In this document: piece after piece, positions 4,321 through 10,964 of the stretch
How positions within the stretch are numbered: the first letter of the stretch is position 1
How the letters are laid out: each line of letters starts with the position of its first letter
DNA from: Kiritimatiellales bacterium
Lineage (GTDB): Bacteria > Verrucomicrobiota > Kiritimatiellia > Kiritimatiellales > Tichowtungiaceae
Length of the DNA: 10,964 nt
Direction: 5' to 3'
Assembly: GCA_028692515.1 (NCBI GenBank)
Contig: JAQUXG010000036.1
Coordinates: 1-10,964 of the forward strand
Notes under the pieces: generated by a model
Databases searched by the model: none
What the model was told of the DNA's origin: nothing
What the model saw: the letters and a program-made list of their open reading frames with translations, nothing else
Program-made: the position numbers and the translations under genes

Positions 4321-4325
4321 AACTG

Positions 4326-4428
4326 CCCACGAATCACACGAATGAACACGAATGTGAACTATTTTTGTTGGAGTGTTGAAAATCAGAGCCGCTCTCTGGA
4401 TTCGTGTCTTATTCGTGTGATTCGTGGG
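4326..4428. mobile_element. 103-base element with 18-base terminal inverted repeats (MITE-like)
   Basis: The left end is CCCACGAATCACACGAAT (4326-4343) and the right end, 4411-4428, is its exact reverse complement. Each is followed inward by one more CACGAAT unit (4347-4353 and 4400-4406), so each arm carries three copies of that 7-mer. The arms enclose about 46 bases. The same ends flank the GxxExxY gene at 9833-10262, so this looks like an internally deleted or non-autonomous relative. It begins 5 bases after the atpE stop and ends 8 bases before the next ATG. No clear target duplication is visible. Mobility is inferred, not shown. Confidence 0.75.
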
Positions 4429-6713: not shown

Positions 6714-6730
6714 TTTCCAAGGTTTGGAAA
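6714..6730. repeat. Palindrome TTTCCAA-GGT-TTGGAAA
   Basis: Perfect 7-base arms with a 3-base spacer, 8 bases after the atpA stop, at the left boundary of the inserted DUF1016 gene. Its first 15 bases also occur exactly at 1391-1405 within smc. Confidence 0.65.
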
Positions 6731-6741
6731 AACAGATGGGT

Positions 6742-6764: not shown

Positions 6765-7895
6765 ATGGGAAAACATAAGAAGCAGAAAATGACGCAGAGC
6801 GAAAACAGTCAGATCATCCGGAACGCCGATTATTCGGCGTTTCTTAAGGATGTGAAGCAGCGGATTCAGTCGGCGCAGATCAAAGCGGCCGTCCGGGTGA
6901 ATCAGGAGCTGTTGGGTCTGTACTGGGATTTGGGCGAGCAGATTATTGAAAAGCAGCGCGAGGCCAAATGGGGCGACGGCTTTCTAGAACAGATGAGCCG
7001 CGACCTGTTGGCCGAGTTTCCCGGAATTAAGGGGTTTTCTTTCCGTAATTTGAAGCATTTGCGGCAATGGGTACAGTTCTGGATGCCAATTGGGAAACAA
7101 CTTGTTTCCCAATTGGCGAAGCAGCCTGCTTCGCAATCAGATTCGAACGAATTTGTGCGGCAGCTTGTCGCACAAATTCCATGGGGTCATAACATACTCA
7201 TTCTCCAGAAGGTTCAAGATGCGGGTGAAGCCCTGTTCTACGTCCGAAAGACCATCGAAAACAACTGGTCGCGGGCGGTTTTGACCCATCAGATTGAGGG
7301 CGGGCTTTATCAGCGGGACGGCAAAGCGATCACTAATTTTGAGGCGACGCTTCCGGCTCCGCAGTCTGATCTGGCCATTCAGACGCTGAAGGATCCGTAT
7401 AATTTCGATTTTCTGATGCTGCGCGAGCGGCACGATGAAAAAGAACTCGAAGATGCTCTGACCGATCATCTGACCCGCTTCCTGCTGGAACTGGGAGCTG
7501 GATTTTCTTTTCTTGGCCGTCAGTTCCGACTGGAGGTCGGCGGCGACGAGTTTTTTGCGGATCTGCTGTTTTATCACGTGCGTCTTCACTGCTACGTGGT
7601 GGTTGAGCTGAAAACAGACAAATTTAAGCCGGAATTCGCCGGGAAGTTGAATTTCTATATTTCAGCGGTCGATAACCTCCTGAAGGCGGAAGGGGATCAT
7701 CCGACTATCGGGATTTTGATTTGCAAGTCGAAGAACGATACGGTGGTGGAATATTCCCTGAAGGATGTTCATAAGCCTATTGGAGTCAGTGAATATCTGA
7801 TCACTCAGAATTTGCCGAATGAATTGAGGTCATCGCTGCCGAGCATCGAAGAGATCGAGGCGGAAGTGGACAGAGATTTTGGATTGGAGAAATGA
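6765..7895 (+). CDS. DUF1016/YhcG family PD-(D/E)XK nuclease-like protein
   Basis: The product has the two domains of the DUF1016 (YhcG) family. An N-terminal helical domain (about residues 25-110) contains GLYWDLGEQIIEKQ and FSFRNLKHLRQW. A linker ending in QLVAQIPWGHN leads into the family's C-terminal nuclease fold. There, FFADLLFY (D266) and VVVELK (E281, K283) supply the PD-(D/E)XK residues, followed by FKPEFAGKLNFY. Residues 107-139 are encoded by three perfect palindromes. The family's role is uncertain: DNA cleavage, defence or mobile-element functions have been proposed. Its place between atpA and atpB, 59 bases after one and 3 before the other, is not part of the ATPase and looks like an insertion. 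The start could also be ATG 6789 (MTQSENSQ); neither has a good ribosome site. The gene looks intact. Confidence 0.93.
   Translation: MGKHKKQKMTQSENSQIIRNADYSAFLKDVKQRIQSAQIKAAVRVNQELLGLYWDLGEQIIEKQREAKWGDGFLEQMSRDLLAEFPGIKGFSFRNLKHLRQWVQFWMPIGKQLVSQLAKQPASQSDSNEFVRQLVAQIPWGHNILILQKVQDAGEALFYVRKTIENNWSRAVLTHQIEGGLYQRDGKAITNFEATLPAPQSDLAIQTLKDPYNFDFLMLRERHDEKELEDALTDHLTRFLLELGAGFSFLGRQFRLEVGGDEFFADLLFYHVRLHCYVVVELKTDKFKPEFAGKLNFYISAVDNLLKAEGDHPTIGILICKSKNDTVVEYSLKDVHKPIGVSEYLITQNLPNELRSSLPSIEEIEAEVDRDFGLEK
7085..7117. repeat. Perfect 16-base inverted repeat inside the DUF1016 gene
   Basis: Bases 7085-7100 (GCCAATTGGGAAACAA) and 7102-7117 are exact reverse complements around a single C. The codons over its centre encode KQLVSQ. 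It overlaps the next palindrome by two bases. Confidence 0.85.
7116..7134. repeat. Perfect 9-base inverted repeat inside the DUF1016 gene
   Basis: GCGAAGCAG and CTGCTTCGC flank a single C. The centre CAGCCTG is in the same codon phase as that of the preceding palindrome (CAACTTG), here encoding KQPASQ. Confidence 0.8.
7149..7179. repeat. 11-base inverted repeat at the QLVAQ motif of the DUF1016 gene
   Basis: GAATTTGTGCG and CGCACAAATTC are exact reverse complements. The 9-base spacer extends the stem by a G-T, a C-G and an A-T pair to a three-base loop. The centre CAGCTTG encodes RQLVAQ, the family-conserved residues just before IPWGHN. Confidence 0.8.
7886..7889 (+). promoter_or_regulatory. 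Ribosome binding site for atpB inside the end of the nuclease gene
   Basis: GGAG lies 9 bases before the atpB ATG and within the last sense codons of the DUF1016 gene (F-G-L-E-K-stop). It supports the ATG at 7899 and shows that atpB initiation now depends on sequence at the 3' end of the inserted gene. Confidence 0.65.
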
Positions 7896-9226: not shown

Positions 9227-9832
9227 ATGGCGAAAATAAAGTACACGAAAAACGAGTTGAAGGCCCAGCGCGATGCGCTGACGCGCTTCCGGCGCTATCT
9301 GCCGACGCTGATGCTCAAGAAGCAGCAGTTGCAGATGGAGCTGCGCGGACTCGAAGCGCAGATCGCCGAAAAACGCGGCGAAGAAGAAAAGGCGCGTGCC
9401 GATCTGACTCCGTGGGTAAAACTGTTTTCCGAGCCGTTTGATTTTACGCCGTATATTCAGATCAAAGAAATTGAGCGCTCAACCGGCAATATCGCCGGCG
9501 TGGCGATTCCAATCTTTGGAAGCATCACCTTTATCGAAGAAATGCCCGACCTGTTTGAAACGCCCGCGTGGGTCGATAGCGGAACCGATCTGCTCCGTCA
9601 GCTGATCCGTCTGCGCGTCGAGCGGCAGATTATTGAAGAGCAGCACCGCTTGCTGTCCGCCGAACTGCGCACCACCTCTCAGCGCGTCAATCTGTTTGAA
9701 AAAGTAAAGATTCCCGAATGCCGCGAAAACATCCGTGTCATCCGCATTTTCATGGGTGACCAGCAGACAGCCGCCGTAGCCCGCTCCAAGATCGCCAAAG
9801 GCAAGAGTGTAGAAAAGGTGAGATCGAGTTAG
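9227..9832 (+). CDS. atpD: V-type ATP synthase subunit D (central rotor)
   Basis: Subunit D is the coiled-coil central axle that turns inside the A3B3 head. The 201-residue product matches the family length. It begins MAKIKYTKNELKAQRDALTR and continues FRRYLPTLMLKKQQLQMEL; the motif of a leucine/lysine-rich helix with Y-L-P-T-L-x-L-K-K is typical of bacterial D subunits. A C-terminal helix (SAELRTTSQRVNLFEKVKIP) completes the hairpin, ending with ENIRVIRIFMGDQQTAAVARSKIAKGK. The ATG at 9227 is set by the family N-terminus; the longer in-frame reading from 9110 would overlap atpB. The ribosome site is weak (CTGAG). The gene contains a TTCCAATCTTTGGAA palindrome at 9507-9521, and an inserted element begins at the base after its stop. 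Confidence 0.95.
   Translation: MAKIKYTKNELKAQRDALTRFRRYLPTLMLKKQQLQMELRGLEAQIAEKRGEEEKARADLTPWVKLFSEPFDFTPYIQIKEIERSTGNIAGVAIPIFGSITFIEEMPDLFETPAWVDSGTDLLRQLIRLRVERQIIEEQHRLLSAELRTTSQRVNLFEKVKIPECRENIRVIRIFMGDQQTAAVARSKIAKGKSVEKVRSS
9507..9521. repeat. Palindrome TTCCAATCTTTGGAA inside atpD
   Basis: Identical to the 15-mer at 4604-4618 but read in another codon phase (cca-atc-ttt-gga). It is a perfect member of the TTCCAA-N3-TTGGAA family. Confidence 0.6.
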
Positions 9833-10262
9833 CCCACGAATCACACGAATGAACACGAATAAGGATATTTTATATAAAGAGGAAAGCTTCGCGATAATCG
9901 GGGCGTGCTTCAATGTGTACAACGATAAGGGGGCAGGTTTTCTCGAGCCAGTCTATCAGGAATGCATGGGGATCGAATTGGCGCTTCAGAACATCCCGGC
10001 GGAGCCCCAAAAGAAACTCGACCTGTTTTATAGAGAGCAGAAGCTGGAGCACTTTTATCAACCTGATTTTATCTGCTTCGGAAAAATAATTGTTGAGCTG
10101 AAGGCCGTGGAGAAGATTACAGATGCGCATCGTGCGCAGGTTCTCAACTACCTGAACGCAACTGGTTTAAAGTTAGGAATCATTGTAAATTTTGGACATT
10201 ATCCGGATCTCGAATATGAACGAATTGTTCTCTGATTCGTGCTTATTCGTGTGATTCGTGGG
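9833..10262 (+). mobile_element. 430-base terminal-inverted-repeat element carrying a GxxExxY gene
   Basis: The left end, 9833-9850, is CCCACGAATCACACGAAT and the right end, 10245-10262, is its exact reverse complement. Including the next inner CACGAAT unit, 26 of 28 bases are complementary between the ends. The same ends delimit the ORF-less element at 4326-4428. The only gene between them starts with its ATG in the left repeat, and its stop codon's last base is the first base of the right inner unit. The element fills the whole atpD-atpI gap except 8 bases before the atpI ATG. No target duplication is seen. That it is, or was, mobile is inferred from the repeat ends and two copies in one operon. 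Confidence 0.75.
9849..10235 (+). CDS. GxxExxY family protein, PD-(D/E)XK nuclease-like
   Basis: This 128-residue protein carries the family's naming motif as GFLEPVY (residues 30-36), preceded by a helix (ESFAIIGACFNVYNDKG). The later YQPDFICFGKIIVELKA supplies D73, E83 and K85 in the spacing of a PD-(D/E)XK nuclease core. The length is typical of the family and the frame is intact. The biological role of GxxExxY proteins is unknown; nuclease activity is inferred from the motif. The first four residues (MNTN) are encoded by the left terminal repeat, and no Shine-Dalgarno is visible; the ATG is 16 bases after the atpD stop, so coupling to atpD translation is possible. The stretch after the start is more AT-rich by eye than the ATPase genes, fitting recent acquisition. 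It is not expected to be an ATPase subunit. Confidence 0.92.
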   Translation: MNTNKDILYKEESFAIIGACFNVYNDKGAGFLEPVYQECMGIELALQNIPAEPQKKLDLFYREQKLEHFYQPDFICFGKIIVELKAVEKITDAHRAQVLNYLNATGLKLGIIVNFGHYPDLEYERIVL

Positions 10263-10270
10263 CGGTAAAT

Positions 10271-10964
10271 ATGATTGTGAGGATGAAAAAACTGACGCTG
10301 CTGTGTACGCGTGCTTCCCGCGAGGAGACGCTCGCGGCGCTACGCGATCTTGGTGCAGTGCATTTGCAGCATATTCAGCCGCCGGAAGGGGCCGATCTCG
10401 AAGAAGCCCGCAATCTTGTCGATCATCTCAACCGCGCGCTCGAAGTTCTGCCGAAACATCCGCACGTCAAACCGTCTGGTAAAACACCGTACGAAACCGT
10501 AAAGGCCGTCTGGGAACTGATCCATCGCAAGCAGGCGCTGATCGAGCAGATTGACGCGCTGGAAATGGAAATCCGCCACTACGAACCGTTCGGAAGTTTT
10601 TCGCCGGAGTCTGTTCGCGAACTGGCGGAGCAGGGCGTAACGGTGAAGCTTTGTAAGCTGCCGATTAAAGAAATGCCGGATATTCCGGACAACGTGAAGC
10701 TGGCGGAACTTAGCCGCGACCGCAGTAGCGTTTATGCGGCACTGATTGTGCGTGGCGAACTGAACCTCGCCGTTGAGGAGGTTCCTCTTCCGAAACAGTC
10801 GCTGGATGCGATGACGAAATATCTTGAAGAGCTCCGCGCTGAACTGGCGCAGACAGAAGAAGAATTTTCCGGGTTTGCCGGCGATCACGACGCCGTCTCT
10901 GAGCTGGCGGGCGATGCGGAAGACCGAGTGAAGTATCTTGAAGCCCGTACCGGAATGGGCGACA
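10271..10964 (+). CDS. atpI: V-type ATP synthase subunit I (5' part only)
   Basis: Subunit I is the large membrane stator subunit of the Vo sector, with a cytoplasmic N-terminal arm and a C-terminal membrane half that forms the ion half-channels. Only the first 231 codons are in the window. They begin MIVRMKKLTLLCTRASREET, and continue LAALRDLGAVHLQHIQPPEG, the usual start of bacterial I subunits. Coiled-coil stretches follow (KAVWELIHRKQALIEQIDAL and TKYLEELRAELAQTEEEF). No membrane segment has appeared yet, as expected for the N-terminal arm. I chose ATG 10271 because M-I-V-x-M-K-K-L is the family N-terminus; ATG 10283 is possible but AGG would be too close to it. The ribosome site, GGGCGGT, overlaps the end of the inserted element. 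The proteolipid gene would be expected downstream. Confidence 0.93.
   Translation, partial: MIVRMKKLTLLCTRASREETLAALRDLGAVHLQHIQPPEGADLEEARNLVDHLNRALEVLPKHPHVKPSGKTPYETVKAVWELIHRKQALIEQIDALEMEIRHYEPFGSFSPESVRELAEQGVTVKLCKLPIKEMPDIPDNVKLAELSRDRSSVYAALIVRGELNLAVEEVPLPKQSLDAMTKYLEELRAELAQTEEEFSGFAGDHDAVSELAGDAEDRVKYLEARTGMGD

Follow-up and report, generated by a model that had tools for sequence, protein, structure and literature searches.

Why is a gene of the GxxExxY family enclosed between two inverted arms in the V-type ATPase operon of a Kiritimatiellales bacterium? The window, the whole stretch of DNA analyzed here, measures 10,964 nucleotides (contig JAQUXG010000036.1) and comes from an assembly of 1.81 Mb, in 288 contigs and 86% complete. 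Positions 9832-10263 probably make up a complete small mobile selfish element, in which a Cas4-like nuclease would be the driver and which resembles the repetitive extragenic palindromic (REP) sequences with their REP-associated tyrosine transposases (RAYTs). Support is good for the element itself and for its mobility. That the protein would act on its own arms is suggested by the analogy with RAYT/REP systems and by the nuclease fold.

The armed nuclease gene

The element and the genes at its sides are the following.

9832..9863, plus strand: left inverted arm, GCC followed by three CACGAAT units at 9835, 9844 and 9854
9849..10235, plus strand: GxxExxY gene, 128 amino acids, PD-(D/E)XK nuclease fold
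10232..10263, minus strand: right inverted arm, three CACGAAT units at 10235, 10245 and 10254, plus GCC
9227..9832, plus strand: atpD, V-type ATP synthase subunit D, the host gene left of the insertion
10271..10964, plus strand: start of atpI, V-type ATP synthase subunit I, the right neighbour

The arms (9832-9863, GCCCACGAATCACACGAATGAACACGAATAAG; 10232-10263, its inverted partner) measure 32 nt, are 91% complementary and are separated by 368 nt. The architecture described by an earlier note on this DNA was confirmed. Over the outer 18 bases (9833-9850) the arms are perfectly reverse-complementary, with 26 of 28 bases matching once the third unit is counted, and each arm holds three CACGAAT units. 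The ATG (9849-9851) and first codons (MNTN) lie inside the left arm, and the right inner unit begins with the final A of the TGA stop (10233-10235). On the other side, the left arm opens with G9832, which doubles as the last base of the atpD TAG stop. In profile searches atpD scores above its model cut-offs; atpI reaches 81.8 bits across the 231 residues present in the window, a part that gave no Pfam match. CACGAAT occurs 12 times in the window, six in the arms of the element and six in a second, gene-less inverted pair (4328-4426), on which the earlier note is silent; the mean in 200 shuffles is 2.1, the maximum 7, and none reaches 12.

The gene matches TIGR04256 (137 bits, cut-off 35) and PF13366 (PDDEXK_3; 136 bits, cut-off 22), the latter being the sole domain detected. 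Nucleases of the RecB/Cas4 QxxxY type carry a PD-(D/E)XK motif made by a D...ExK site, a helix Glu and QxxxY. Residues E33, D73, E83-x-K85 and Q97-xxx-Y101 form a complete site of this type; E33, D73, K85, Q97 and Y101 are invariant in 50 sequences, E83 is found in at least 90%. The structure predicted for the protein (predicted local distance difference test 93) has the Cas4 protein SSO0001 as its nearest match, and both motif and fold are those of a RecB/Cas4-type nuclease. Profile scores, active-site residues and predicted structure agree with the PD-(D/E)XK-like nature proposed earlier. The difference of fold from RAYTs is likewise borne out, PF13366 alone being detected and the predicted structure being Cas4-like; no Y1 HUH, DDE or other known transposase domain was found in the protein by profile searches. 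Cas4 proper is defined by a four-cysteine iron-sulphur (Fe-S) site, for which there is no room, because the protein has three cysteines only. Neither this site nor a cas1/cas2 neighbourhood is present at the window locus, where the neighbours are V-ATPase genes, and Cas4 models match the protein at E 0.01 only. One homologue search returned 4849 GxxExxY homologues among 4851 candidates, and of the 97 neighbourhood genomes 76 contain matches, up to 21 in a single one.

The gene-less pair in the window forms a hairpin.

4325..4353, plus strand: left arm of the gene-less CACGAAT hairpin, between an atpE-like and a DUF2764-like gene
4400..4428, minus strand: right arm of the same hairpin, with a 46-nt loop at 4354-4399

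The 29 bases of its left arm are identical to the first 29 of the arm at 9832, and as single-stranded DNA the region 4325-4428 folds at -31.2 kcal/mol (z -9.1). Both genes beside it score under the cut-offs of their models (atpE-like, 149 bits, cut-off 241; DUF2764-like, 21 bits, cut-off 24.1). Throughout the 1.81-Mb genome, the arm 26-mer, allowing up to 3 mismatches, occurs 12 times, the reversed pattern never. Nine further arm places include six clear gene-less inverted pairs (L004, L006, L008, L009, L014, L015), two arms with a partial partner (L007, L011) and an ambiguous case (L012). Gene-less inverted doublets are thus dispersed in the genome, which is the layout of hairpin-forming REP doublets (REPINs). 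Two more GxxExxY pieces reside in this genome, one truncated (38 residues, 76% identical) with CACGAAATACACCAAAAACACGAAAA-type arms, the other distant (27%) with CCACAAAAAACACAAAAA arms. Different members of the family are therefore framed by different words.

Mobility and arms in other genomes

The closest relatives of the element encode proteins 87-90% identical and have the same arms. In genome G009 the relative lies at the atpB/atpD junction; in G004 and G013 it lies upstream of a kdsD-like gene of the KpsF/GutQ family. The earlier note had called for a comparison with V-ATPase operons lacking the insert, and empty junctions do exist: atpD and atpI overlap or nearly abut, insert-free (gap of at most 23 nt, mostly overlap), in 24 of 28 readable relatives, among them G004, G013 and G009, whose elements sit elsewhere. 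The kdsD site, read in ten loci and in a stretch of G013, is empty and 72-73 bases long in G000, G007 and G008; in G004, where the element is present, it measures 505 bases. The remaining congeners read lack the element and have a different spacer. There is no element at the kdsD gene of the window's own genome, which thus holds the insert-free allele of its sibling's site. Each of the three sites is empty in some of the other congeners. Occurrence of the same arms and gene at three congener sites, together with the empty sites, shows that the element moves as a unit. The gene-less hairpin at atpE/DUF2764 is also absent in 9 of 9 congeners compared; there the stop and start codons abut or nearly so in six, and another insert is found in three. 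GxxExxY elements with CACGAAT-type arms occupy the atpD/atpI junction also in G029, which belongs to another family, and in G011, where the junction is read from two contig ends, so either this site received insertions repeatedly or the insertion there is an old one. Shrunken forms, made by arms and a partial gene only, were found at L195 and L333.

The arm score of a locus is that of the best inverted match joining the 200 bases on one side of the gene to the 200 on the other. Its median is 18.5 over 53 GxxExxY loci; 394 windows shifted along these loci have a median of 8.5, a 99th percentile of 12.5 and a maximum of 17. Of the 53 loci, 49 reach the 99th percentile. Left flanks paired to right flanks of other loci (2756 pairs) have a median of 8.5 as well, and a 99th percentile of 19.5, which is higher because words are shared between loci. 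Nine other genomes, labelled Prevotellaceae, Tectomicrobia, Planctomycetota (including Roseimaritima and Phycisphaerae), Hydrogenedentota, Sumerlaeota, Lentisphaerota and Akkermansia, contain 36 matches, 30 of which were scored. At or above the 99th percentile (13.5) of 161 shifted controls are 23 of the 30, at or above 12.5 are 24; of the 21 loci scored for the first time here, 16 pass at either value. The idea of an element thus survives the possibility that genes of this family generally lack flanking repeats. Arms of tandem units are general, as had been expected, but the word is usually not CACGAAT.

A stricter count requires at least 5 units with a mean pairwise match of 5.5 of 7; it is passed by 50 of 82 loci and by none of 468 shifted windows (49 of 80 without the duplicates L170 = L037 and L173 = L040). 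Inward-facing arms are present on both sides in 51 of the 58 loci with a clear word, and 189 of 207 unit spacings measure 8-10 bases. The units printed mostly fit CRCNRAN, and include CACGAAT, CACGAAA, CACGGAA, CACAGAG, CACGAAG, CGCGAAA, CGCGGAA, CGCAAAG, CGCCAAG, CACTAAT, CACGGAT and CGCAGAT, among others. Very different words (GACAACTTG, GGAATAATT, CGTCAATT) occur also in the Prevotellaceae genome. At L058 and L320 the gene lies between two complete hairpins, one per side, rather than two single arms.

Words vary with the protein. Distances of proteins and words correlate in 56 loci (Mantel Spearman 0.39; 0 of 2000 permutations); these are the 82 minus 22 lacking a unit chain on both sides, and minus L058 (poor chain), L003 (fewer than 100 residues), L057 (stop) and L173 (duplicate). 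On a maximum-likelihood tree the two variable word positions need 15 changes, versus 35.7 when shuffled, with 0 of 200 shuffles as low. Near-copies contribute to this clustering. A CRCGGAA-type clade unites Planctomycetota, Sumerlaeota and Hydrogenedentota, and the comparison shows that word and protein are inherited together across phyla. When the nearest protein below 70% identity is considered, the exact consensus word is the same in 11 of 56 cases (4.6% in random pairs), which means that words drift. Genome G009 has nine GxxExxY matches, one of them a remnant, and arms, where present, of several words. Arm remnants with four different words are clustered there within about 1.1 kb (G009:C1:1529043-1530166).

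The gene is under strong purifying selection: compared with its three relatives, the window gene shows pS of 0.84-0.88 and pN of 0.05-0.07. The six units agree across the four elements at each of their 42 bases, while third codon positions agree at 27 of 120. Left inner units overlap the coding sequence; the right arm, where 21 of 21 unit bases are the same, is non-coding bar one base. In this alignment the arms are shown to have stayed constant while synonymous sites became saturated.

Gene-less arms are numerous and lie mostly in genomes that have GxxExxY genes, with the exceptions given below. The generic triple pattern has 1377 matches in the 97 genomes, versus 141 for reversed controls; exact CACGAAT triples, gene-bearing ones included, number 62 in 14 of the 97, with no reversed control. 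The 76 genomes in which GxxExxY was matched have a median of 12.5 generic arms, the 21 others a median of 1.0. Arms correlate with the number of GxxExxY genes (Spearman 0.51), and 796 matches exceed two per gene. These medians, and the way the word tracks the protein tree, speak against repeats independent of GxxExxY genes. Over all 97 genomes the cognate gene is associated with CACGAAT arms at p 8e-6, kinship uncorrected. The arms of the gene resident in G056 have CGCGAAT as middle unit, and a CGCGAA- middle unit is found in 21 of 24 GAAT-type arms among the places listed (41 of 88). In G060, the gene-less copies L311, L312 and L313 bear CACGAAT arms and lie in different places; over 120-228 nt their identity is 83-97%.

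Mechanism and rival explanations

The element would consist of inverted arms of three 7-base words, at a spacing of about 9.5 bases, around one gene for a 128-residue nuclease. The nuclease may recognise the triple word of its own arms, in duplex form or folded into hairpin or cruciform ends, and nick or cut there; host repair or replication would then copy or relocate the element. Gene-less hairpins of the right word would be non-autonomous passengers, as REPINs are for RAYTs. Gene junctions would tolerate insertions, here the stop/start overlaps of the V-ATPase operon.

Several observations weigh against this mechanism. Clear arms flank 2 of 7 homologues in plasmid records (Bernardetia, Bacteroides finegoldii). 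The saturation of synonymous sites indicates that copies are old, with no recent burst, and the G013 copy has a stop inside the GxxExxY gene. At kdsD no target-site duplication is readable, empty and filled sites differing beyond the insert. The reversed control is itself slightly commoner in genomes with GxxExxY genes (median 1 versus 0, p 0.016), and within the genus the association of cognate gene and CACGAAT arms is not significant (p 0.22). G001 and G060, whose assemblies are about 90% complete, hold 12 and 11 CACGAAT arms but no GxxExxY gene with arms of this word; G049, G062 and G086 have no match to GxxExxY and hold 23, 17 and 7 generic arms. The tie between repeats and genes supposed by the earlier note stands overall, but not for G001 and G060. 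Genes for four-helix-bundle proteins are armed too (of 30 loci, 24 reach the 99th percentile set by 165 shifted controls, and 20 reach 12.5), and hence a nuclease is not needed for the armed architecture.

The four-helix-bundle genes, which encode no nucleases and are equally armed, the orphan arm families of G001, G060, G049, G062 and G086, and the G060 copies, for which no cognate gene was found, favour a unit that is mobile but has its arms moved by the host, through hairpin template switching in replication or recombination between dispersed arms. The protein would then be a regulator, resolver, protector or passenger. This explanation is unlikely, though it deserves attention: catalytic residues are invariant, the gene is kept by purifying selection, and a word tracking the protein tree across phyla is unnecessary for a passenger. 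Rather improbable is homing, in which the nuclease cuts existing gene-less hairpins of its own word and repair copies the gene in, so that gene-less arms are targets rather than derivatives. The same genomes do hold gene-less hairpins of the resident's word, in G056 the odd CGCGAA- middle unit of the resident's arms recurs in 21 of the 24 GAAT-type arms listed, and the gene-less loop in the window is, by eye, unlike the ends of the gene; yet arms are missing from the kdsD and atpD/atpI sites of the relatives read as empty. As a variant of the explanation preferred here, homing cannot be fully separated from it.

Mobilization of CACGAAT repeats in trans by Y1 transposases (RAYT or TIRYT), with GxxExxY as cargo, could be imagined from the Y1_Tnp matches in 41 of 45 genomes, two of them in the window's own genome. 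It is disfavoured, to the point of being very improbable, by 14 Y1 loci whose own inverted repeats differ in sequence (11 of them score at least 12.5, a count made without control windows); CRCNRAN triples flank none of the 14 on both sides, and one on one side only. Just as hard to believe are arms serving as operators or RNA hairpins for autoregulation of a vertically inherited operon gene, the pattern of presence being due to loss. The start codon inside the left arm, and the gene at atpD/atpI in G029 and G011, where old insertions or repeated use of the site are possible, would suit such arms. They are largely refuted by the same arms and a close protein at three sites; gene-less arm pairs on contigs other than those of GxxExxY genes, and the nearest relative of the window element at another junction, also speak against them. 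The selfish element with RAYT/REP-like logic and a different fold remains the preferred explanation. Mobility, co-inheritance of arms and protein, and the difference of fold sustain it, while the orphan arms of G001 and G060 do not fit its simple version.

Known systems, meaning and minor observations

The element works like RAYT/REP systems, without being a member of them. REPtrons also have one small gene flanked by its own short repeats, and REPINs are dispersed, hairpin-forming, intergenic gene-less doublets. Passages of PMC3116915 and PMC3733652 describe how a single genome can hold several types of repeat and proteins dedicated to them, and a passage of PMC8049555 long persistence rather than bursts; both features are shared by GxxExxY elements. 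In contrast, RAYTs are HUH/tyrosine enzymes and GxxExxY a PD-(D/E)XK nuclease of RecB/Cas4 kind; REPs carry a GTAG tag, GxxExxY arms three tandem 7-base words varying by protein subfamily; and Y1 genes in genomes bearing GxxExxY have other repeats. TIRtrons, with their TIRYTs, are described in part of PMC3733652 as a Y1 transposase within terminal inverted repeats. They resemble the element in having one small gene inside such repeats and dispersed repeat copies, and differ in enzyme fold and in lacking the tandem words of GxxExxY arms. Y1-transposase genes L297-L310 have terminal inverted repeats of their own (GGGGTCAGTCCTATAATTTAATG and similar), as in published TIRtrons, and the Y1 loci with GGGGTCAGTCCTAT-type inverted repeats look like a separate, TIRtron-like system.

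The intervening sequences (IVS/S23; TIGR02436) are likewise elements of about 430 bases with one small gene, which encodes a four-helix bundle, no nuclease, and is associated with other words (GGCNNTAG, GTTTGGA, GATAAC). The intervening sequence in Coxiella 23S rRNA is called a selfish element, with tandem GACAGAT heptamers upstream of the gene, in a passage of PMC4990558. Inverted arms of words such as these frame 24 of the 30 four-helix-bundle genes at L124-L153, and further armed ones, recognised by eye, lie at the atpB/atpD junction (L069, L071, L073, L080, L092). Cas4, RecB, AddB and lambda-exonuclease (PD-(D/E)XK, QxxxY) share fold and active site with GxxExxY, which differs in standing alone between its own repeats, with no helicase and no Cas1-Cas2 in the window operon. 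Miniature inverted-repeat transposable elements and insertion sequences share the terminal inverted repeats and the gene-bearing and gene-less forms; the GxxExxY gene encodes no DDE or other known transposase, and no target-site duplication could be read at kdsD, where the flanks of filled and empty sites differ.

In the literature searched, sparse in subscription papers and preprints, no paper linking GxxExxY to repeats or mobility was found, nor any published function for this commonly annotated family; this kind of element may not have been described before. Relatives with words of their own occur in several phyla. It is conceivable, and close to an even question, that GxxExxY genes form a large unrecognised class of mobile elements independent of known transposases, in which a minimal Cas4-like nuclease reads three 7-base words per arm, about one per helical turn, with a word for each subfamily, and spreads gene-less hairpins as well. 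Evolution would then have produced armed micro-elements on three or more occasions, around unrelated proteins (RAYT, four-helix bundle, Cas4-like nuclease). A nuclease of the Cas4 kind acting on non-CRISPR repeats would bear on how Cas4 joined Cas1-Cas2. The four-helix-bundle parallel, which weakens the requirement for a nuclease, broadens this interest. Were the arms the substrate, one explanation would cover the family, its gene-less repeats and the scattered intergenic repeats of CACGAAG, CACAGAG and CGCAAAG type. Protein-word pairs would provide a natural set on DNA reading by a small PD-(D/E)XK nuclease, and the mobile element would be one without any known type of transposase or recombinase.

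Other insertions and repeats were observed in these operons. A DUF1016/YhcG PD-(D/E)XK gene (PADLOC candidate PDC-S02) is inserted between atpA and atpB at 6765-7895 of the window. The two genes overlap in 8 of 9 congeners read, G006 having another insert, and YhcG pieces lie upstream of atpB also in G011 and G012. Palindromes of the GGGCAGGATGCATCCTGCCC kind mark the atpB/atpD junction in several genomes (L067, L079, L085, L091). Palindromes of TTCCAAnnnTTGGAA type, recognised by eye and with no known owner, recur in intergenic DNA, at 6720-6735 of the window and at L002, L003, L007, L351 and L353-L355.
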